NCBI GenBank assembly: GCA_963678705.1
Contig: OY783219.1
Span: forward strand, 2,728,001 to 2,792,000
Origin: Panorpa germanica
Taxonomy: Eukaryota; Arthropoda; Insecta; Mecoptera; Panorpidae
Length of the DNA: 64,000 bases
Direction: 5' to 3'
Part shown: one piece after another, positions 5,330 through 50,727 of the stretch
Position numbering within the stretch: the first letter of the stretch is position 1
How the letters are laid out: every line of letters starts with the position of its first letter
Notes under the pieces: model-generated
The model's database searches: none
Seen by the model: the letters and a program-made list of their open reading frames with translations, nothing else
Told to the model about the DNA's origin: nothing
Made by a program: the position numbers and the translations under genes

Positions 5330-5910
5330 TTCTTCTTGTCTAAACTCTATTCCTTCATGTTCCCTACTCCTCCTTCCTCCACCTGCTTCTCCTTACTTCT
5401 TGCCTGTACCTCCGTCACGTACCTCTTGCCTTTACCTCTATCACTATTACAGACATAAAACCTCTGGTTTTGCATCTTTAAACATATTTAACTAGCTTCA
5501 TCCTTCGTCCTTCTAATTATTTCTGCCATCCATCTGTTCCCTTCCTTCTGCTGCCCATCCTGTCCACACAATCATCCCTTATGTGCTCCAGTGTCTACAC
5601 TTTTGCTTTGCAAACACTGCACCTCTTTTCTTCTCCGTCCACCCAGTATCTTCTTTCCATTTTCTTCGTTCCCCAATCTTTTAACCTTCTTCAGGTCACT
5701 CTCATTTCCCGTCATATACTCTGGCATCCCACTTTCCCATAATTTTCTATATTTGGCATTACATCTGCTGCTATCAATTTTGCTCATGCTTTCCTGCTGT
5801 ATCTTTGATTCTTAGCTCATTCTCTACCATTCTTCCTGCCGCCCTCTTTCTCTCCACCTCCTCAGTCGCCATTCCATTCCATTAAAAGTATTCTTTCCTT
5901 CCTTGCTCTT
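5330..5910 (-). mobile_element. LINE 3'-end fragment (antisense)
   Basis: The minus strand reads, across frameshifts, like the C-terminal part of the LINE at 38.9-40.1 kb. It has a GMATEEVERKR block, then VENELRIKDTAGK (compare VEEELRRRDKKIQQQ), then KYRKLWESGMPEYM, then RLGNEENGKK, then a zinc-finger-like VCKAK...DTGAHK (compare VCGAEDETLEHIK). The first part of the element (endonuclease, most of the RT) is absent, so it is a 5'-truncated, decayed copy. The plus strand of the same stretch is CT-rich, which explains several accidental frames there. Confidence 0.75.
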
Positions 5911-25716: not shown

Positions 25717-26290
25717 CAGGGTGTCCCGTAAGTATCACGAGTGGGTCGTGACAAACTAAGATATAAAAGTTTTGTCCCATATTCTTAGATTGTGATAACC
25801 TTCACACGATATGTGTTAAAATTTCATGACATTGCGACTATGAATTTACAAGTTGCAGTGGTTTTAGTCACCCTACTTTTTTAACTTTCAAACTCTGAAT
25901 TTCTTGTGAAATCATTGCTTTTTTATGTCACTATTGGCAAATCCATATAATTTTTAGATAGCAACAATCTTTACACGATATGTGTGAAAATTTCATGATA
26001 TTACGACTATTCATTTACAAGTTGCAGTGGTTTTAGTCACCCTACTTTTTTAACTTTCAAACTCTGAATTTCGTGTGTGAAATCATTGCTTTTTTATGTT
26101 ACTATTGACAAATCCATATGATTTTTACATAGTAGCAATCTTTACACAATATGTGTGAAAATTTCATGATAATACGACTATTAATTTACAAGTTACAGTG
26201 TTTTTAGTCACGCTACTTTTTTAACTTTTAAAACAATGTAAAATTTAGAATTTCTTGTGGGAAATCATTGCTTTTTAACGGGAAAACATA
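25717..26290 (+). repeat. 168-bp tandem repeat, about three units
   Basis: After ATACAGGGTGTCCCG, three units follow with a period of 167-169 bp. Markers in each are TTTCATGA, ACGACTAT (one GCGACTAT), TTTACAAGTTGCAGTG, TTTTAGTCAC and CTACTTTTTTAACTTT, seen near 25830, 25997 and 26166. The third unit is the most diverged. Antisense single units stand at 10265 and 17640, so the family is also dispersed. It is non-coding. A local satellite-like expansion of an interspersed repeat is the simplest reading. Confidence 0.85.
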
Positions 26291-27079
26291 CCGTTTAAGT
26301 AAAGTAATGAATTGATAAGTGTTATCCGGACTCTGCCCCATCGAGACAAATGATAGCACAATGGTTTATCAATACAAGAAATTCAGATTTTTCATTATTC
26401 CTTTCCATTAATATATTTTTAATATTAGACGAAACTACATCGTTCTTAAATGGTTTCATATTTATTTAATGGGGGAGTGGGAGTTTCTTTAAACGTAAAA
26501 CAACTCGCCTAAGGCAGCACTTTACTCATGAATCTATTAGACCCAATTTCAATAAATAATATAATTTAAACAACACAATGAAACAATATTGTTTATTTTT
26601 CATAATATATATAAATAAACTACGGGCTAGTCGTGGTAGTGTCTCTTCTTCTTTCTTTGTTCAGAGAAAACCAATATTTAGTTTCGATTTATTTGTATTT
26701 GATTTGATGTGAAATGTCAGCATCATCGACGACAGCGCGAGCGCGACGCTACTCACAGCGTAATGTTATATTGATAGCAAACAGTATTAATAGAAATATA
26801 ACGGGGTCCCAGGGGAGTATTAACAGCAAATATAGGCGATGTGTACCTGAGCATCTCTTTGTTTGTGCACTTTGTTTCAATTATGTTGACTTTGTGATTT
26901 TTTAACTATCAGAAAAGTACATAGGAAAGACTGCACCACGATGTTGCCATACCTACAGAGGGACAAGAAATTAGAACTCGAACAGACCGAGTTGTGAACC
27001 ATCCAAACACATTAGTGACCAACCTAATGGAAGACAGGACTATTCAGTGTACGGAAGAACACATCTCTTTAATAACTGA
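26291..27079. other. No gene seen
   Basis: A 63-codon frame at 26714 begins MSASSTTARARRYSQRN and stands in a GC-richer patch. It has no domain and its second half is phenylalanine- and cysteine-rich, so I do not call it a gene. The frame at 26994 runs into the antisense LINE fragment. Confidence 0.45.
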
Positions 27080-27585
27080 ACAATCTTCTTTTCACTTTTT
27101 ACTCCCTTTACACTTTAATGAGCTCCAGGGTTTCTATCACTCCACAGCACACCTTGCACATCCTTTTCTTTTTATTCTCCCAGTATCTGCTGCCTTTCTC
27201 TTCGTTTCCTTGTCTCTGTTTCTCGTATGTATTCCAGTATCTCTCTCACCAAAATCATCTTGTATCTTTCATTATATTTGATATCATCAATTTTTTTCAT
27301 TCTTTGCTGCTGCTGTATCTCTCTGTCTCTGCTCCTTAGCTCCTCTTCTACACTTGTCCCTCTTCTTTTCTTCTCTCTGCCTCTTCTGTCGCCAGTCTGT
27401 TCCTTTCTCCTTTTCTTTCTCCTTCTTCCACTTTCCTTTCTACTCTCCTCCTTTGTTCCTTCCTTCCTTAGGATCTTGCCTTTAGCTCTCCTTCCTGCTT
27501 CGATGTCCAGCTCTAATTTGGCATATCTCTCCTGGATGTTTTCCAATTTCTTTTGTTCTTTTCAATCTATCTCATCATGCTCGAC
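27080..27585 (-). mobile_element. LINE 3'-end fragment (antisense), best preserved antisense copy
   Basis: An uninterrupted minus-strand frame of 124 codons covers 27546-27172. It reads a lysine/arginine/glutamate-rich linker, then TSVEEELRSRDREIQQQQRM, then a KYNERYKMI block. This matches VEEELRRRDKKIQQQERM and YNKRYKML of the plus-strand LINE at 39.65-39.77 kb. Downstream on the minus strand, at 27170-27110, the zinc-finger segment is recognisable but decayed. The highly charged linker makes the plus strand CT-rich. It is a 5'-truncated, inactive copy. Confidence 0.8.
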
Positions 27586-35826: not shown

Positions 35827-36069
35827 CCCTGAGTGTGAACACTCTATTTTTCGAGACATGGTGTGTACACTGACCCTTTTAGGGAACAGATGCGAGTTTA
35901 ACTGACTGCCGGTAACCTGCCAGATCCGGACGCTGCTGGAACTTTAAGTCCCTACCACTACCTAGATTTTTTAGAAGGCATAGGCAAAGCGCACTCTGTA
36001 CTCATGAGAGAGAAATAGGAGTTTGAAATTTCAACTGTTCCTTAAAAGACCCAGTGTACACACGCAGGG
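35827..36069 (+). mobile_element. piggyBac-type MITE
   Basis: A 243-bp element flanked by TTAA on both sides (35823-35826 and 36070-36073). Terminal inverted repeats are CCCTGAGTGTGAACACT and, from the other end, CCCTGCGTGTGTACACT, 15 of 17 identical. A subterminal GTGTACACTGACCCTTTTAG on the left echoes the inverse of the right end (GTGTACACTGGGTCTTTTAA). TTAA targets with CCC-starting ends are the hallmark of piggyBac-like elements. It is non-coding, so it would need a transposase from elsewhere. Confidence 0.85.
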
Positions 36070-36073
36070 TTAA

Positions 36074-36360
36074 TAAAAATTAAATTTAAACAGAAATTGT
36101 TTATTTTACATTACACAGACGCTGTGTTGCCTACCTCTGATCCTAGTTATAATACTGTAATATTAAAGAGGATGCAAATTTAATAATGAAAATACTTAAA
36201 TAGAATACGGGAGAAAAATTTATCATGTCTTGTTACCATTTCGCTTTGAAGCCTAATCAAAGGTAGGACATGTTTATTATATTTAAATATATATAATACA
36301 TATTACATGCTCTTATTACACATACTTCCCCCTCTCCTCCCACACTCATACATATATATA
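36074..36360. other. No gene seen; AT-rich spacer between two transposons
   Basis: A short spacer ending in a TA-rich stretch, ATATATATA, whose last A (36360) is the left half of the Helitron target site. Confidence 0.6.
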
Positions 36361-36430
36361 TCTACCTATTATAATGTTCGTAATGTTCCAATTTAACATG
36401 GAAAACTCATAAGAACTCATAGATATTTAT

Positions 36431-36488
36431 ATAGAGCGTTATTTATATATTTATATATTTATATATTTATATATTTATATATTTATAT
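36431..36488. repeat. (ATTTATAT)n short tandem repeat
   Basis: About seven units of the 8-base word ATTTATAT near the 5' end of Helitron A. Elements B, C and D have different AT/TTC tandem words at the matching place, so this segment seems to turn over quickly. Confidence 0.85.
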
Positions 36489-38460
36489 ATATATCCGGTA
36501 ACAAAATCGTATATGGTATCTTATAAACGGCGCCTACAAAGTTCTTCAAATTTTGGTATGATGTAAAGGACGAATTTCTAAGACTTTCTACGTCTCTGAA
36601 TTTTCCCCTGAATTTCCGTGGAAAAACTTATACTGGAAAAACTGAAAAATTCGAAGAAATAATTTTGCTAATATCTGACGAACTAGAAAAGATAGAAAAC
36701 TGAAATTTGGTGTGTGTATTGAGATCATAATTGTGCACATTTTCCGATAGTTGGAAATTTGAAATTTGAGTTCAGTAGCGGCGCGAATTTCTGGGGGCAA
36801 TGTTAGAATAGAGTTAGGACGTTCAAATTTAATATGTAGGCTCGCTGTAGACAGTAATTAATGAAAAAAAATAAACAGCCCCAAATTTCCAGTGGCGGCG
36901 GGAGTTGAGACAATAAAAGCCAGAAATATTGAAAAAGAAGTATTAAAACTTTGGATATGTATTAAGACACTAATTGTGCATGTTTGCCAATAATTGGATT
37001 ACCAAAATTTTAATTCAGTAGCGGCGTGATTTTTTGGGGCAATGTCGCAACAGAGCTAGAACGTTGATATTTGGAACGTGTGCCTTATATAGAGTGTCAT
37101 TAAAGAAAAACTATAGAAAACTGTAACTTTCCAAAGGCGGCGGGCGCTGGGGGCCAAAAACCAGAAATATGAAATATATAGAGATGATTGGCTATAGTTT
37201 AAAAAATATGTTCTTAGATACAAATAAAATAGATTCCCGTGCTAAAATTTAACAAACTTGTTCAGTAGCGTTGGTATGTGGGGGGTACTAATGCTAAAAT
37301 ATAAATACAAAGCTGAAATTTAGTATGCAGATATAGATTGACATATTAATAACGAAAATATAAAAAAAAATACATTTCCTTAAGTGTAACACTAGAATGG
37401 GGGGTGATAAACCGAGTATAAGAACAATATAGAGGTACAACGATGATATTTTGCATGTAGAATATTAATTAGAAGCTAAATACTTCTCTATAAGTCAAAT
37501 ATTCAAATTACATTCAGTAGTAGAATTGTATTGATTTTTGGTGCGTTTGTTGTGCTGTGAAGTCGAACAGGAGTGAGAGGTATAGGGGGCAAATAGTTAA
37601 CAGCCCCAAATATCAAAAAATAGATAAAGTGAAAAAATAGAAACTATGCATGTGCATATTTGCGAAAATAAATTTAACCTTAGTAGCGGCGTGAAATTGG
37701 GGAAGTGGGGGCGGGAAAAAGCTTTGCCAAAGAACTCAATTTTGTATTTCGATCATTTATAAAAGTAGGAGTAGATAAAGGTAGAGAGAGTTGCTACGAG
37801 CAAAATAGATTGCTATGCCTAAAATTTGACAATTTTATTTTAGGAGCGGGGATTAATGGGGTGACTAATATTATAACGTAAATATAAATACGAAATATAG
37901 AGTGTAAGATTACAGTACAGTTTTATTCATGTAAATGAATTGCTATAATATCGAATTAATAGTGCCTGATTGGAAGAGAGTGCGGCGCTGGGGTTCAGTA
38001 CTAAGTAACGGTGGTGTTAGAAGTAGTGGCGATCGATTATAATGGCCCTGAGAGGTAACCGTGTTGCAGAATATGTGCTTTGGTGCTGAAAATGTGGGTG
38101 GCGGGGTATGGGGAAGTGCAATAACGGGAAGGAAAAGGCCTAGAGATGAGATTATTGGGAGCAAACTGCTAGGCTTTCTTAAACATAAATGAATTGATGT
38201 AATTAGTAGATTTACATTGAAATTAGTGAAAATTTTATCAAAGATTTATCTTATCGAATAATTAATAAAAAATAATGTACTTCTAAGGATGAAATTTAGT
38301 ATGCAGGTTGCCAGTAAAGTATTAATTTGGAAAACTAATTGTTAAGAGATTAGTACGCAGGGGGTGGAAGCGCAGAATTATTTAATGATTGCGCTAAACG
38401 GGGGGTATAGGAAAGTGCCCTAATAAGCGATGATGTTTAGTTAAGCTGTAGTGTTGCAAG

Positions 38461-38830
38461 TGGGCGCATTATGGCAAAGGTGCAGATGATTACAATTAAA
38501 AGTGCGAGAACGATACAGAGCATGGAGCCAAGAGGTGATTGATGTTTAGGGGCGGGGCAGTGGACATTGTTTAATACTGTGCTTCATTATGGTAAATGAT
38601 AATTTTACGCAGCGGGGGCGCTGTAAAAGTTCTCTAAGGACCGACGATGCTCAGGGAAAAAGCGATGCAGAGTGCTAAAAGTAGGAGGCGCTTCATGGCA
38701 GAAGTTTAGAGGAATCAAATTAAAAGTTCGGAAACGTAAGAGAGCATGAAGCCAAGAGGTGATGATTGGGGCTTATGGGCGGGGGCACTGAAGACTGGTC
38801 AATACAGTGCTTAATTACTGTAAATAAAGG
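38461..38830 (+). repeat. Tandem duplication of about 233 bp in Helitron A
   Basis: Two diverged units follow each other. Shared markers are ATTAAAAGT near the start, GAGCATG with AGCCAAGAGGTGAT in the middle, then GGGGCGGG or GGGCGGGGGC, and a TAATACTGTGCTT or CAATACAGTGCTT end. They lie just before the LINE insertion. They are non-coding and absent from element B. Confidence 0.7.
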
Positions 38831-38869
38831 AATTATAACAAAATAATATTTTGTATTTTATTTGCGATA

Positions 38870-40140
38870 TATACAGCAGACTTGGAGGGGGTAATGGTAA
38901 GAGGACAAGATGGGGGAATGCTAATAGGAAGACACTACAAGATATGGACTTTAGCATACGCTGACGATATAGTCCTGTTGGCAAAAAGGAAAGGAGAGCT
39001 GCAGGAGATGGCTCACCGGCTAGGGAGATATATAGACAGGAAAGGACTAGAGTTAAATGTGGAAAAGACAAAAATTATGGTATTTAAAAAAGGGGGTGGA
39101 AAATGAAGACATAAAAGGTGGAAATATAAGACAGAGGACATTGAGGAAGTAGAAGAATTTAAATATCTGGGCTACACTTTTAAAAAGAACAATGAAGAAG
39201 AGTCTCGGATAAAGGAGGTAGCAAAGAAGGCGGAGCTAGCAATGCGACGGGTATAGGGACTAGGGGAAAATGTATTTGGGGGGGACATACAAAAGAGAAT
39301 ATGGATGTTTGATAGACTGATAGCCAGTATGATGTTGTATGGAGCAGAGGTTTGGGGGTGGAAGGAGCAAGAAAAGTTGGAAAGAATACAGGTGAGATAT
39401 AATAAATGGTTACTAAGGCTGGACAGGTGCACGCCAGGATACATGAATACGGAGAAGCTAAAATGGGATAAGATACGAATTAAAACAGGGGAAAGAGCAG
39501 TAAAATACGAGAAGAAATTGAACACAGCGGAAAGCAAAATTTGAAAGAAAATAAGAGAGGATAGCATGAAGAATGGTGGGGAGGAGGTACAAAAAAGACA
39601 AAATAGTACTTTGAAAGGAATGGAATGGCGATCGAGGAGGCAGAGAGGAGAAGAGAAGGGGGCGCAAGTGTAGAAGAGGAGTTAAGGAGAAGGGATAAGA
39701 AGATACAACAGCAGGAGAGAATGGGAAAAATAGAAAAAAGTAACTACAATAAAAGATATAAAATGTTATAAGAAAATACTGTGCCTCAGTACCTTATAGA
39801 AAAAGACATAAAACACATAAAAAGAACAGCAAGGTTTAGATTGGGAAATGAGGAAAAAGGAAACAGATACTGGGAAAAGAGTTAGGAAAGAAAGTATAGA
39901 GTGTGCGGAGCGGAGGACGAAACACTGGAGCACATTAAGTTTGAGTGTAAGGAAAAAGTAGCTAGCGAAACGAATATTGGCCAGCTATTAAAGGGAGGCA
40001 GTAAAGGAAAGAGGTGGAAGGAAAGGAAAAACAGAAGAATAAATAAGTTAGTAGAGAATAATGTAAATTTAATTGTAAGTTGAAGTATATGAAATGTATT
40101 AAGAATGTAGATTGTAAAGCCGAAAGACGAACAATAAACA
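38870..40140 (+). mobile_element. LINE 3' part inserted in Helitron A
   Basis: The plus strand carries the second half of a non-LTR retrotransposon polyprotein, broken by frameshifts and stops. It starts abruptly at ADLEGVMVRG (38.877 kb), upstream of the RT catalytic box, so the endonuclease domain and about the first half of the RT are missing, a typical 5' truncation. It ends with a tail holding AATAAACAATA near 40.13 kb. The flanks are Helitron A sequence, so the LINE arrived later. I could not find an exact target duplication. Antisense relatives occur at 5.3, 10.9, 27.1, 47.8, 50.3 and 62.1 kb. Confidence 0.85.
38877..40083 (+). pseudogene. Reverse transcriptase C-terminal part, broken
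   Basis: In order: the RT palm box LAYADDIVLLA (about 38.95 kb, catalytic DD present); GLELNVEKTKIMVF; after a frameshift EEFKYLGYTF and KAELAMRRV (stop); then a thumb-like region with MLYGAEVWGWKE, VRYNKWLLRLDRCTPGYM and a stop at 39.54 kb; a charged linker with VEEELRRRDKKIQQQ; RTARFRLGNEEKGNRYW; a zinc-finger-like CGAEDETLEHIKFEC (C, H, C kept) at 39.90 kb; and a basic tail to the stop at 40.08 kb. In the intact family this enzyme copies element RNA at a nicked target. The copy is dead. The wording resembles LINEs I associate with hymenopterans and other insects. Confidence 0.85.
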
Positions 40141-40231
40141 ATATTTCAGGATTATTTTCTATTTATCAAATAACTTTTATTTATTCACAAATATTAAATA
40201 CCCGTCGCTTTGCGACGGGGCGAAGCGCTAG

Positions 40232-41470
40232 TCATATATTATAATGTTCCAAGTGTATATTTATATGTTTGTTTGTTGCTGAAATTCGTATGGTAGAATG
40301 AAAACGGCTCCGTCAATGTTTTTGAAAGTTTGCTATTTCGTAGAGAAAAAAATTCTAAGACTTTTGGCGTCCCCGGATTTTTCCCTGAATTTCCTGGAAA
40401 ACCGTAATTTTGGAAAAACTGGAAAATTTGAAAAAATACTTTTGCAAATATCTGACGAACTAGAAAAGATGAAAAACTGAAATATAGTACGTGTATTGAG
40501 ATCATAATTGTGCACATTTGCCGATAGTTGGAAATTTTAAATTTGAGTTCAGTAGCGGCGCAAATTTCCGGGGGCAATGTTAGAATAGAGTTAGGATGTT
40601 TAAATTTAATATGTAGGCTCGCTGTAGACAGTAATTAATGAAAAAAAATAAACAGCCCTAAATTTCCAGTGGCGGCGGGAGTTGAGACAGTAAAAGCTGG
40701 AAATATTGAAAAAGTAGTATTTAAACATAGGGTATGTATTAAAACACTAATTGCGCATGTTTGCCAATAATTGGATTACCAAAATTTTAATTCAGTAGCG
40801 GCGTGATTTTTTGGGGGCAATGTCGCAATAGAGCTAGAACGTTGAAATTTGGAACATGGGCCCTATATAGATAGTAATTAAAGGAAAATTAAGCAAAATT
40901 GCAAATTTCCAGTGGCGGCGGGCGCTGGGGGCCAAAAACCAGAAATATAAAATATATAGAGATGAAAGGCTATAGTTTAGAATATATGTTCTTAGATACA
41001 AACAAAACAGATTCCCGTGCTAAAATTTAACAAACTCGTTCAGTAGCGGAGGTTTGTGGGGGGTACTAATGCTAAAATATAAATAAAAACCTGAAATTTA
41101 GTATGCAGATATCTGCATCTGCGTCAATCTGCAGATTGACATATTTATTACGAAAATATAAAAAAAAATACATTTTCTTAAGTGCAACATTAGAGTGGGG
41201 GGTGATAAACCGAGTATAAGAACAATATAGAGGTACAACGATTGAAAAAAAGTTGGTCCAATAACAAATAAATTGAAAATATTTTATATTTTGAATTAAA
41301 AAATGTATTTTCTTAGTCAGTTTGTATGAAAAATTAATTGTTATTAAATGTTAAATCAATATAGGACGAGTTTATTTATTATTTCAATTTAAAAATGGAA
41401 TTAAATTTTGACTTGAAATTCAAGCCACTCACAAAAAACAAAAGTCGCTTGCGACGGGGGTAAAAGCTAG
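40232..41470 (+). mobile_element. Helitron-like element B
   Basis: A 1239-bp element starting TCATATATTATAATGTTCC at the base after element A's CTAG. It ends with the hairpin GTCGCTTGCGAC (41444-41455) followed by GGGGGTAAAAGCTAG. Its body is colinear with element A: a GACTTTTGGCGTCCCC block, AATTGTGCACATTTGCCGAT, and the TTCAGTAGCGGCG modules at about 120-bp spacing. It then jumps to a 3' segment with an AATTGAAAATATTTTA stretch. A 112-codon minus-strand frame lies over it without any domain; it is accidental. Non-autonomous. Confidence 0.85.
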
Positions 41471-43796
41471 TCTTATATTATAATGTCCGAGGTGTATGTT
41501 TGTTTTCTTATATTCTTATATGTTTATATGTTTACTAGCTTTTACCCCCGTCGCAAGCGACGTCTGTCTTTTGTGTATGGCTTTAGTTTCATGTCAAATT
41601 TAATTTCCATTTTAAAATTCAAATATTTAACTTGTTCTATATAAATTTTATATACAAAAATAAATAATTTTCGATTCGTAAATAAGTTACCAAGGTTAGC
41701 CTATATACAAAATTTCAAGATTTTTGCACAATTTTTACTTTCGGCAAAAACTGCCCCCGTGCCCGCAAATAAAATTTTGAAATTTTGAATTTTCTTTTAT
41801 TAATAATATACATAATTATTCTAGAACCCGGAATATGAACTTTCTCCAAAGTTCCCTACCGTGCCCCCGAATTTCTTCAACCCCCCACTTTTCAATTTTT
41901 GAATTTCTAATTTTTGAGATATGTCAGCATTGAATACCTTAATACACATGCAAAATTTCAACTTTTTATCTTTTACGAATTAAAAGTAATACAGCAAAAA
42001 AGGGCTCACTTTTTTTCCAGTTTTTCCAAAATTACGGGTCTCCAGGAAATTCAGGGAAAAATCCGGGGACGCCAAAAGTCTTAGAATTTTTTTCTCTTTA
42101 AAGTATTTAAAGTCTCTTTTAAAGTTCAGAGTTTATCCCCGTCGCAAGGCGACGTCTTTGTGGCGTGTATGATTTGAATCCAATAAAATAATTTGTAATT
42201 ACAATTCATTCATTTCATTCATATTCATTTAATTCTATTTTTAAATTGAAATAATAAATAAACTCGCGCACATATACATTAACACATATAAATTGACTAA
42301 AAAAATATATTCTTTTATCAAAATAAAAAATATTTTCAATTTATGCGTTATTTGACCAACTTTTTTTCAAAATTTGAGATTTTTTTTTTTCGATTCGTAA
42401 ATAAGTTACCAAGGTTAGCCTATATACAAAATTTCAACTTTCTAGCACAATTTTTACTCTCGGCAAATACTGCCCCCGTGCCCCCCAATAAAATTTTGAA
42501 ATTTTGAATTTTTTTTTATTAATAATATACTTAATTATTCTAGAATCCAGAATATGAACTTTTTCCAACGTTCTTTACCGGGCCCCCGAATTTCTTCAAG
42601 CCCCCCTTTTTCAATTTATGAATTGCTACTTTTTGAGAAATGTCAGCATTAAAAAGCTTAATACACATGCAAAATTTCAACTTTCTATCTTTTACGACTT
42701 AAAAGTAAAACACCAAAAAAGGGTACACTTTTTTTCCAGTTTTTCCAAAATTACGGGTTACCAGGAAATTCAGGGAAAAATCCGGGGACGCCAAAAGTCT
42801 TAGAATTTTTTTCTCTACAAAATAGGAAATTTTTAAAAACTTCCATGGAGCCGTTTTCGAGCTACCATACGAATCGCGTAAACATATAAGAATATAAGAA
42901 TATAAGAATATAAACATATAAGAATATAAGAAAACAAACATACACCTCGGACATTATAATATAAGATATTCTTATATTCTTATATGTTTACGCGATTCGT
43001 ATGGTAGCTCGAAAACGGCTCCATGGAAGTTTTTAAAAATTTCCTATTTCGTAGAGAAAAAAATTCTAATACTTTTGGCGTCCCCGGATTTTTCCCTGAA
43101 TTTCCTGGACACCCGTTATTTTGAAAAAACTGGAAAAAAAGTGAGCCCTTTTTTGCTGTATTACTTTGAGTTGGTAAGAGATAGAAAGTTGAAATTTTGC
43201 ATCTGTATTAAGGTAATCAATGCTGACATTTCTCAAAAATTAGAAATTCAAAAATTGAGAAAGGGGGGGTTGAAGAAATTTGGGGGCCCGGTAGGGAACT
43301 TTGGACAAAGTTCATATTCTGGATTCTAGAATAATTAAGTATATTATTAATAAAAAAAAAATTCAAAATTTCAAAATTTTATTTGGGGGCACGGGGGCAG
43401 TATTTTCCGAGAGTAAAAATTGTGCTAGAAAGTTGAAATTTTGTATATATGCTAACCTTGGTAACTTATTTACGAATCGAAAAAAAAAATCCCAAATTTT
43501 GAAAAAAAGTTTGTCAAATAACGCATAAATTGAAAATATTTTTTATTTTGATAAAAAAATATTTTTTTTTAGTCAATTTATATGTCATGTATATGTGCGC
43601 GAGTTTATTTATTATTTCAATTTGAACATAGAATTAAATATGAAATGTAATTACGAATTTTTTTATTGGTTTCAAATCATACACGCCAAAAAGACTTCGC
43701 TTTGCGACGGGGTAAACGTTACTAAAATTTAAATTTTTACATGAAGTTCAAGCCACACACAAAAGACACGTCGCTTGCGACGGGGGTAAAAGCTAG
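41471..43796 (+). mobile_element. Helitron-like element C, split by nested element D
   Basis: It starts TCTTATATTATAATGTCCG directly after element B's CTAG. The first 64 bases (41471-41534) are cut off from the rest (42967-43796) by element D. Joined in order, the two pieces follow the same layout as D (start, TTC/TAT tandem words, CGCGATTCGTATGG, GGCGTCCCCGGATTTTTC). The 3' end is the hairpin CGTCGCTTGCGACG (43769-43782) followed by GGGGTAAAAGCTAG ending at 43796, with T next. A second, internal hairpin-like CTTTGCGACGGGGT lies at about 43700. Without D it is 894 bp. Non-coding. Confidence 0.8.
41535..42966 (-). mobile_element. Helitron-like element D, nested in C in reverse orientation
   Basis: On the minus strand it starts TCTTATATTATAATGTCCG at 42966 and ends with hairpin CGTCGCTTGCGACG (41562-41549), then GGGGGTAAAAGCTAG at 41535. 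The plus-strand flanks are A (41534) and T (42967), the expected A^T site. Inside, at about 42128-42153, is a second hairpin GTCGCAAGGCGAC, after which part of the body is repeated. The element is therefore a fusion of two partial copies, one truncated to its 3' half. Against element C it forms a long inverted repeat centred at 42966. Non-coding, 1432 bp. Confidence 0.8.
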
Positions 43797-46700
43797 TATA
43801 TATTAAAATTGTCTAATGAACACTCTTACATCTACACCTAAGAAAATATTTTAATATTTCTACAATTTCCAAAGGTTATTTACACTTAACAAGATTGCCT
43901 AGCTTATGTTATGTATGTAGATGTGCGTTTTTTGTTCGTACGTGTGTGCTTTTGTAGATGTCGAGGCATATAGCCCACGCGTACATAAGAGGTAAGCACT
44001 TGTTATATATATAATCGAAATAATATTTCATAAAACAAATTCCTATTTCAGTGTAAATCGCATTTCAGCCTTCTTTCAATTTGTCTTTTCAGTCCATAAG
44101 ATCCCCCTCTACTTAACCAACCCCTCCTCCCCCCTAAACCACCCACAGTCTATTTAACGCACAACGTTTAACGTACACAAATTCCAAGCCAGACTCCGCA
44201 CGATGGCGATGATATCGAAGGCAGGGTATGTGTTGGTTTGAATAAGAGGGTGGTTGATGGTTTAGTGAAGGGTTGGGTGGGGGGTTGTAACGCTTACGAA
44301 CCTATTCGTCATAAGCATTCAACGACTCAAAGCACGGCCTAAATTACTTTTAAGATTTGAATCGTTTTTCCAGTTCAGTATTTTCAATTGATAGAAAAAA
44401 TACTGGTGAATATATATATTTATTTATAAAGAATTTATATTATATAAATAAATCGTTCTTATTTACTTACTTGTGTGCCCTTGATTTTACTTATTTAAGA
44501 TAACATCACATGCAGATTATTCGTGCGATGATGTACGACCAACTTGTTCTTTTCAACAAATTTATTTAAGGGAATTTACTAGACTGCGTTTGATGTTATT
44601 TATAGCTACGAGTTTGTAAAGAAAATTGAACATTTTGTGACGTATGAATTGGTGTTGCTGCGGCGGTGTTTCCCAAGAATTTCAAAAGGTTAAACTAAGA
44701 TGATATGGTAGTTAATTCTTAGATACAATTTGTGACCATAAAGTAAAGAGAATGTAGATGCTAAACAGCTGAAGACAAAAGTTTGCCTTCAACGTGTGAG
44801 TCAAATATTGGAAGATTGACATGGCAAGTTTTCTACTACACGGTGGAACGAATGTTTGATCCGAATGATTTATTTATTTTATTAATTTGTTGATATTATT
44901 GACACTGATGCTGTTTAACAAAAACGTTCAAGTAAATAAAGAAACTTTCAAGTATAAAACCTTCCTTTGTTGGACGATTCGTGCAGCACTGTATGACATG
45001 TGGATCAAGTGTGTGGTGGCGGTAGAAAAATCTTTCTTGACGCGGGTCAAAAGACCGACAACAGCCCGAATTTCTTGCAACGTGAACGTTGAACACACTT
45101 ATTTCCAGCATTGACCACACGATGCGTGCAACCATCAAGTGTCCAACGTTGGAAAGTGTTTGTAGCACTTAAAATATTAAATATAGTCGAAATTGCGAGG
45201 GTTCGGCGGTGATTTACAAATAATTTTGATCGGAATCCAATTACATGCGAATCGTATAACTCTGAATGGTGATTGGAATCCTATTAGACATTAGTGAGAC
45301 CTTACATGAAGCTTTGGACAGCATGTCTGAACCGGCCGGAACGCTCCGTACCCCTTCTGATTGCCTTCCTAATACTTTCCAAACGAGGTTTGCCGAGGTG
45401 CAAGTCGTGGTACTACCCAGTACTACCACATATGTTCTCCCGAACGCTGTTTGACTACTGTCTAACCACTGTCTGATACGAGATTGCTAAGATACGACAA
45501 ATTGTTTGTAGGGCAATGGTGAATTTTTTTTTATTAGTTACAATATGCATTATAAAAAAATGTAAGAGGAAGTGCTTTTTCATTGTATCGCAGATTTATA
45601 TGTCACAACCTGTATTAACCATGAGTCGCCGGCGAACTCTCTTAATTTAAACTATATTAAAATTTGTAATTGATTATGCTACGTCATTTTTAATTGGTAT
45701 CAATAATTCAAAATCAATTTCTACTTCTAAAGTAGATTCTACAATGATAGAACACAGCATCTGTTTTATTCCATTCGTATAGTGGAACAAGATGCGGATG
45801 TAAACTGGTACACCCTCACACACATAAGGCATCCCCCTACCCTCCTACCAGTCCCACCACCCAACACATAATGCTTTAGTTTAAACTAACGTAAATTAAT
45901 CTAACTCACATCTTGCTGGCGTATTACCTCTCAAATCACATGCTCTGCGTACAATCCGTTTAAACTCGTAACGTACTTCCGTGCACCCCTTCCTCCCCTC
46001 CCCCACTCTTTCACTATTACCACCCAAGTTCCCATCCTTATGAAAACGTCTTTGTTTTGTTTTAACCCCCGTGGAATAACTTCGTCTAGTATCTAGAAGC
46101 AGTACCAGCACCAACATCTCCCACTCTCTACCCCACTCCTCCCCCATCCGTTCTTAACAAACTTTATAATACTGAATATATGATTTTGATTTCTTTAAAT
46201 TTTCAAATTCTACTTAAAACTTTTTTTCTTTTTATTTTATTTGTACCACTGTGTTTGATTTTTGAATGTTTACTTTTGAACAAGTGGTGCTTTTTGCGAT
46301 TGAATTAGATGGAGTTGAATTCAACTGAGAAAAATACACTTTTCATGTTAAATGGAAATTATTTGGGAATGTCATTTTCATTTATGTGTACACACGTTTA
46401 GCAATTTTATAGCTTGGGTAGTTTTTATCGCAAAATGTATATTTTTATTCAAATAAAATAATAGATTGAAGCCATATTCCCCTCACTCACTGTTTTTAGT
46501 TTTAATTTAAGGTTTTAACCTGCTGAAACATTCATTTTAGGTAAACCTTAAATTAACACTTAAACTCAGATTTATTGTTTATGAAATAGGGCTATTTATA
46601 TTCTACTATCCATAGCTATTTCTTGTGTCTTATATTTAAAATGAGTAAAATTAAAATATTCCTTAATGTATGGATCGCCTAGTTCATTAGTCAGATAACT

Positions 46701-47774: not shown

Positions 47775-48190
47775 CTTCTACCTTAACTCATTAAATGACA
47801 TATCACTGTGCTTAATTCATTTTTGATCCTTACTATATCTAAAAATTCTCATTCCTTCCAAAAGGAAAAAACATATCCTTATAAAAATAAAAACAAAACT
47901 GCTACTGCTACTGCTTTGCTCCTCCTGCTGTTTCTACTCTGCCATTCCTTCTCTTTCCTTGCTCCTTTTCTCTATCTCCGTCATCCACCTCTTCCTTTCA
48001 CTGCCTCCCTTTAATAACTGCATAATATACTTTTCCCTTATTACCTTTTTCTCAAGTAAAAACTTAATGTGCTCCAATGTTTCTATCTCCGTTCCGCACA
48101 CCCGGGACATCCTTTCTTAGCTATTTGCCCAATATCTGTTTCCTTTCTCCTCGTTTCCCAATCAGAATCTGGCAATCCTTCTCATGACAT
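47775..48190 (-). mobile_element. LINE 3' end (antisense), subfamily shared with 50.3 kb
   Basis: The minus strand gives a decayed LGNEEK-like block near 48.16 kb, then a zinc-finger start in the style CGTEIETLEHIKF near 48.09 kb, then a charged tail and a 3' untranslated part. The whole stretch matches 50295-50714 in order, including AACTTAATGTGCTCCAATGT and CCTTATAAAAAT on the plus strand. It is 5'-truncated at about 48190. I found no clear target duplication. Confidence 0.75.
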
Positions 48191-50257: not shown

Positions 50258-50714
50258 ATTATTATTTTAATGTTTTTGCCATTTCGCACTACATTTTTGT
50301 ACCTTAACTCATTTATTTACATGTCATAGTGCTTAATTCAATTTTGATCCTTATTAAATCTAGACATTCTCACTCCTTCCAAACGAAAAAAGAAAGAAAA
50401 AAACATATAAGTTTATCCTTATAAAAATGAAAACAATACTGCTTTGCTCCTCCTGCTACTCTCCTCCTGTTTCTATTCTGCAATTCCTTCTCTTTCCTCG
50501 TGCCTTTTTGCTATCTCTTCTATCCACCTCTTTTCTTTAATAACTGCCCTTTATTCTTTTCGCTACCTTACCTTTTTCTCACATGAAAACTTAATGTGCT
50601 CCAATGTTTCTATCTCTGTTCCGCACACCCTCCATATCCTTTCCTCGCTATTTGCCTAGTATCTGTTTCCTTTCTCTCGTTTCCCAATCTGAATCTGGCA
50701 ATCCTTCTTATGTA
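50258..50714 (-). mobile_element. LINE 3' end (antisense) with 13-bp target duplication
   Basis: A 457-bp, 5'-truncated copy. TTCGATCTTAGTT stands on both sides (50245-50257 and 50715-50727), which is what target-primed reverse transcription leaves. The minus strand carries the end of the LGNEEK-like block, a CGTEIETLEHIKF-like zinc-finger segment near 50.6 kb (decayed), a charged tail and a 3' untranslated part ending in an AT-rich tail at 50258. It is a close relative of 47775-48190. Plus-strand frames of 68-83 codons over it are accidental. Confidence 0.85.
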
Positions 50715-50727
50715 TTCGATCTTAGTT

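Follow-up and report, generated by a model that had tools for sequence, protein, structure and literature searches.

How three Helitron-like elements with unlike bodies came to lie head to tail, without a single spacer base, at one A^T target is the question raised by a locus of Panorpa germanica. The locus lies in the 64,000-nucleotide stretch of DNA analyzed here as a whole, referred to as the window.

Array architecture and element termini

The sequence was inspected over positions 36001-44400. Three elements, all on the plus strand and all running from TC to CTAG, follow one another: A (36361-40231, 3871 bp), B (40232-41470, 1239 bp) and C (41471-43796). The last measures 894 bp (41471-41534 plus 42967-43796) when a nested copy, indicated as C', is left out. 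The elements adjoin directly, with zero spacer, and both inner borders read CTAG/TC. The border dinucleotides are A/T at 36360/36361, G/T at 40231/40232, G/T at 41470/41471 and G/T at 43796/43797: the outer 5' border provides the A, and the outer 3' border the T, of a single target, while B and C are individually preceded by a G, as expected within an array. A-B-C is confirmed as a group of related Helitrons, stacked head to tail within one outer A/T pair.

An earlier note on this DNA had described three Helitron-like elements, joined without spacer at one outer A^T target (flanks A 36360 and T 43797). This description is borne out, with element coordinates exact to the base. The lengths given there for B and C also agree with ours, and the latter implies that C', on which the note is silent, had in fact been noticed. 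The size of about 2.6 kb, proposed for A without its LINE, is reproduced (2583 bp) only if the LINE is taken to extend over approximately 38852-40139, borders inferred from a weak 7-bp repeat with copies at 38845 and 40140.

This LINE, a broken, reverse transcriptase-bearing element found on the plus strand in the 3' part of A, presumably resembles hymenopteran elements. A Pfam match to RVT_1 (E 2.3e-08) is located within A at 38828-39103. Elsewhere in the window, the LINE-bearing part of A has six BLAST matches, all in reverse orientation, within 5568-5896, 27064-27407, 47984-48186 and 50535-50716. A Pfam scan of ten ORFs, six of them in the array, covering part of the possible frames, detected neither a Helitron Rep nor a helicase domain; in the six array ORFs scanned, RVT_1 was the sole domain found and no captured gene was recognized. 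The Helitrons of the array are apparently non-autonomous.

A, B, C and C' all start with TC, followed by 3-4 bases and TATTATAATGTYC. When the window is searched on both strands, this 5'-end motif has four matches, starting at 36361, 40232 and 41471 (plus strand) and at 42966 (minus strand). The 3'-end motif, composed of GCGACGGGG, 3-9 bases and CTAG, also has four, ending at 40231, 41470 and 43796 (plus strand) and at 41535 (minus strand). Both motifs are absent from 40 first-order Markov sequences of 64 kb, searched on both strands; since the motifs were derived from the four copies themselves, this control addresses chance alone. The 3' termini read GCGACGGGGGTAAAAGCTAG in B, C and C', and GCGACGGGGCGAAGCGCTAG in A, where 40201-40231 (plus strand) comprises a predicted hairpin and the CTAG after it; this 3' end is of another type.

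Features of canonical Helitrons (Helitron1 type) found here are a 5' TC and a 3' CTRR, here CTAG, in 4/4 copies each, a predicted hairpin a few bases upstream of the latter, and insertion at A^T without target duplication, as seen from the empty site of C' in C and from the outer flanks, A and T, of the array. The stems predicted for the 3' hairpins measure 8 (A), 4 (B), 5 (C) and 5 (C') bp, that of B being weak (-3.9 kcal/mol). Recognition of true 3' ends by hairpin strength was considered and rejected: in B, C and C' the structure predicted at the true end is less stable than that of a pseudo 3' end in C', described below (-9.0). The CTAGTC hexamer by itself was also rejected as evidence, as it occurs 14 times in the window (6 on the plus and 8 on the minus strand). 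On sequence grounds, the evidence for the array is the homology of the ends, not the hexamer.

Mosaic bodies and the nested copy

The three units are related in part. The first 1084 bp of A are related to the 5' part of B, and the two elements have about 1 kb in common: 863 of 964 aligned positions are identical when gaps are not counted, while BLAST reports 87.4% over 955 columns. From position 38821 on, A has no BLAST match in B, and only its last 40-odd bases align, 34 out of 42 being alike. B is also related to C, in both end parts, with identities, gaps not counted, of 149/174 in the 5' part and 190/222 in the 3' part; for the latter, the BLAST figures, which include gaps, are 73.9% (inner stretch, 165 columns) and 88.6% (final 70). 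For positions 196-1010 of B, no BLAST match is found in C at E 1e-4. A tandem repeat of one Helitron unit should feature like units throughout; here the bodies differ.

In a 77-column alignment segment, private differences number 16 in A and 2 in C, while B and both bodies of C' have none: within this shared segment A is, as aligned, the most diverged sequence. The use of private changes to date the order of insertion was rejected, as a clock puts all paralogues equally far from their common ancestor.

C' (41535-42966, minus strand, 1432 bp), detected via inverted repeats I8 and I10, interrupts C in the opposite orientation, between A 41534 and T 42967, an A^T site. Once it is removed from C, a gap-free alignment with C' covers the first 149 bp of C and spans the insertion point (position 64); the three mismatches fall at positions 60, 61 and 148. 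This is a paralogous empty site: it supports the assignment of TC and CTAG to the ends of C', and an A^T target that was left unduplicated. The gap-free length slightly overstates how precisely the base of insertion is known, because the site falls within a TA-rich simple repeat, where mismatches 60 and 61 lie within 5 bp of it. According to the earlier note, separate copies with 5' ends upstream of TC would speak against the proposed borders; in C', the one copy available for this comparison, the 5' end is found at TC, not upstream. Together, C and C' give rise to an inverted repeat of 423 nt (42481-43388, 90% complementary, arms 62 nt apart), likely to be a trouble spot for assembly.

Inner, pseudo 3' ends are present in both C and C'. 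In C', GCGACGGGG is found at 42126-42145 (minus strand), with a predicted hairpin and no CTAG, and is followed by a second, headless body of 591 bp. C' consists of two family bodies in a row, the second of which shows 91% identity to the first over 300 nt; the true 3' end of C' belongs to the second body. In C, the same sequence is found at 43704-43723 (plus strand), with a weak predicted hairpin, again with no CTAG, 73 bp before the true-end motif. C' is probably a composite, arisen by nesting or read-through.

Composites are probably part of the history of this Helitron family, because the inner 3' ends of C and C', devoid of CTAG, resemble those of maize elements explained by nesting. In the available passages of PMC3288121, maize HelA elements with several termini are reported to contain inner pseudo 3' ends, nesting being proposed as their source, and CTAG is lacking in 99 of 100 sampled pseudo 3' ends. 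The likeness to C and C' lies in these CTAG-less inner ends; HelA differs in that, as presented in those passages, it is not itself a zero-spacer array. Stacks may also be the raw material from which composites with several 3' ends arise; C and C' seem to exemplify such elements.

Origin of the array

The array was probably built by successive, independent insertions of canonical-type Helitrons of one family, each at the 5' A^T border of a resident element. A Helitron starts with T, after the A of its target, and its 5' border would therefore reconstitute a full A^T target. A second element entering this site in the same orientation would have its CTAG directly against the resident TC, and would take over the left-hand A; after two such insertions, A-B-C would stand between a single outer A and a single outer T. 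The predicted order is C first, B second and A last, and we infer both the separate arrival of A and B and this order. C' would later have landed inside C, reversed, at another A^T. The enzyme would be a RepHel protein, presumably supplied in trans.

Stacking at the 5' border is favored because the observed borders (A/T, G/T, G/T and G/T) are what such a process would yield. It is also favored because the bodies are unlike, A and B sharing about 1 kb, B and C only their end parts, while the 3' end of A is of another type, and because C' shows a single A^T insertion, with no target duplication, into a relative. At both inner junctions (2/2), CTAG/TC joins unlike elements, as in consecutive insertion of the maize type. 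For the maize pair two insertion routes are named, one of them using the AT composed of a host A and the 5' T of the resident (PMC2267711, parts available), and maize HelA elements are stated, with reference to other work, to favor insertion near or inside other Helitrons (PMC3288121, parts available).

Unbiased insertion would generate at most 0.0008 triples, and 0.004 to 4.9 pairs, per genome, figures which are illustrative only, being obtained from nine settings of assumed genome sizes and copy numbers. Given this ceiling on triples, a bias toward the 5' ends of relatives or toward TA-rich sites, or some other route, would be needed. It is conceivable, although rather unlikely, that the resident 5' terminus is an active landing site, where RepHel, bound to the shared 5' sequence, nicks A^TC and joins the incoming 3' end. 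If so, relatives should accumulate in one direction at one another's 5' ends, above the general A^T rate.

An identical final sequence would be produced by stepwise insertion at the 3' end of the resident, using the G^T after CTAG. This is one of the two routes suggested in the earlier note, and it has been considered for maize on the basis of some lines where the left element is found alone, a situation which G^T insertion at the 3' end would explain no less directly than stacking at the 5' border, and which would otherwise require a later excision (PMC2267711, parts available). The 5' border is preferred as the likelier side, because there the canonical A^T gives the same result, while the 3' side requires a non-canonical target twice. 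Both C' and the outer border of the array use A^T, and a marked preference for AT is reported for de novo insertions of wheat Helitrons (excerpts of PMC13286980). Repeated insertion at the 3' end is accordingly held to be distinctly unlikely. The other suggested route, rolling-circle replication past a terminus, may be understood in two ways. A ready-made array could have moved as a unit, starting at the 5' end of A, reading through two 3' ends, those of A and B, and stopping at the CTAG of C: a single insertion would suffice at the site, and read-through of a 3' end is reported from experiments on Helraiser (PMC4778049, parts available). Moreover, the CTAG-less inner 3' ends of C and C', comparable to those of maize (PMC3288121, parts available), precede further family sequence, which suggests earlier read-through or nesting in this family. 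Unlike those pseudo ends, however, the 3' ends of A and B have kept their CTAG intact, and the movement of a unit merely shifts the question of how the array was formed; this form of the suggestion stands as a rival with a small chance of being correct.

Understood as the copying of one element, by repeated passage past the terminus or by insertion of a multimeric circle followed by divergence, the same route is disfavored by the mosaic units, and the statement of the earlier note that no simple duplication of one unit is involved is supported by their unlike bodies. Exact CTAG/TC joints are found in Helraiser circles (excerpts of PMC4778049), and tandem arrays of bat and silkworm have been ascribed to bypassed termination (excerpts of PMC4067079). 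Yet the units of a concatemer would begin identical, while here 196-1010 of B is unmatched in C, and A from 38821 on is unmatched in B: the unlike bodies would have to be explained by nothing but deletions and insertions, and we consider such an origin very unlikely. Fusion of separate copies by an assembly artefact appears more improbable than any of these. The locus was judged from the assembled sequence alone, and repeats, the 423-nt inverted repeat included, are error-prone for assemblies; but both joints are exact at biological ends, a misjoin falling twice at CTAG/TC would be unexpected, and the divergence between the units suffices to distinguish them.

Comparable arrangements and other features of the window

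Because the CTAG/TC junction and insertion on both sides were discussed for maize already in 2008 (PMC2267711), the arrangement is to be regarded as a new example of an already described kind. In the parts of that paper available, head-to-tail maize Helitrons resemble the present ones in the succession of CTAG and TC, in the G/T junction, in the unlike bodies and in the discussion of a 5' or 3' side of insertion. They differ in being two elements, which contain gene fragments, whereas here three are found, plus a reversed nested one, with no captured gene recognized. Three Helitron copies in tandem are also described for Metarhizium acridum, with either double insertion into the 5' end or rolling-circle replication offered as explanation (PMC5148889, in part). 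The likeness is in the three tandem copies, spacer length aside, while the elements are fungal and have non-canonical, Helitron2-like termini. The same source lists tandem cases for bat, Drosophila, rice and maize.

Tandem Helitron arrays from Myotis lucifugus and Bombyx mori are cited in PMC4067079; the bat case, by Pritham and Feschotte, is reported in PMC2267711, and features perfect head-to-tail junctions. The similarity is limited by the description of the bat elements as tandem repeats, and by the fact that both bat and silkworm arrays are ascribed to bypassed termination (PMC4067079). Distantly related Helitrons, directly adjoining one another, are mentioned for bat and maize (PMC4067079), and tandem arrays are cited for plants and bats (PMC5876387), in the passages available from each. 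The portions available of two insect Helitron papers (PMC6544945, PMC4344730) contain nothing on zero-spacer arrays.

The array described here is a clean three-unit example, in which C' serves as internal control. With stacks of this sort, models of formation can be told apart: the rightmost unit should be the oldest if insertion was at the 5' border, and the youngest if it was at the 3' border, while the movement of a unit predicts the existence of sister arrays.

Searches for relatives in viral contigs gave no match to the 3' end of the family. The 5'-end motif has a sole match there, in contig L001, rejected as due to chance: BLAST aligns this contig to the window only over 19 and 28 bp (E 0.25 and 0.89). 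For B, no match was found in plasmids. Within the window, a tandem array of a different kind is located at 25800-26232, where a 171-bp unit, satellite-like in length, is present in 2.6 copies with 92% matches.
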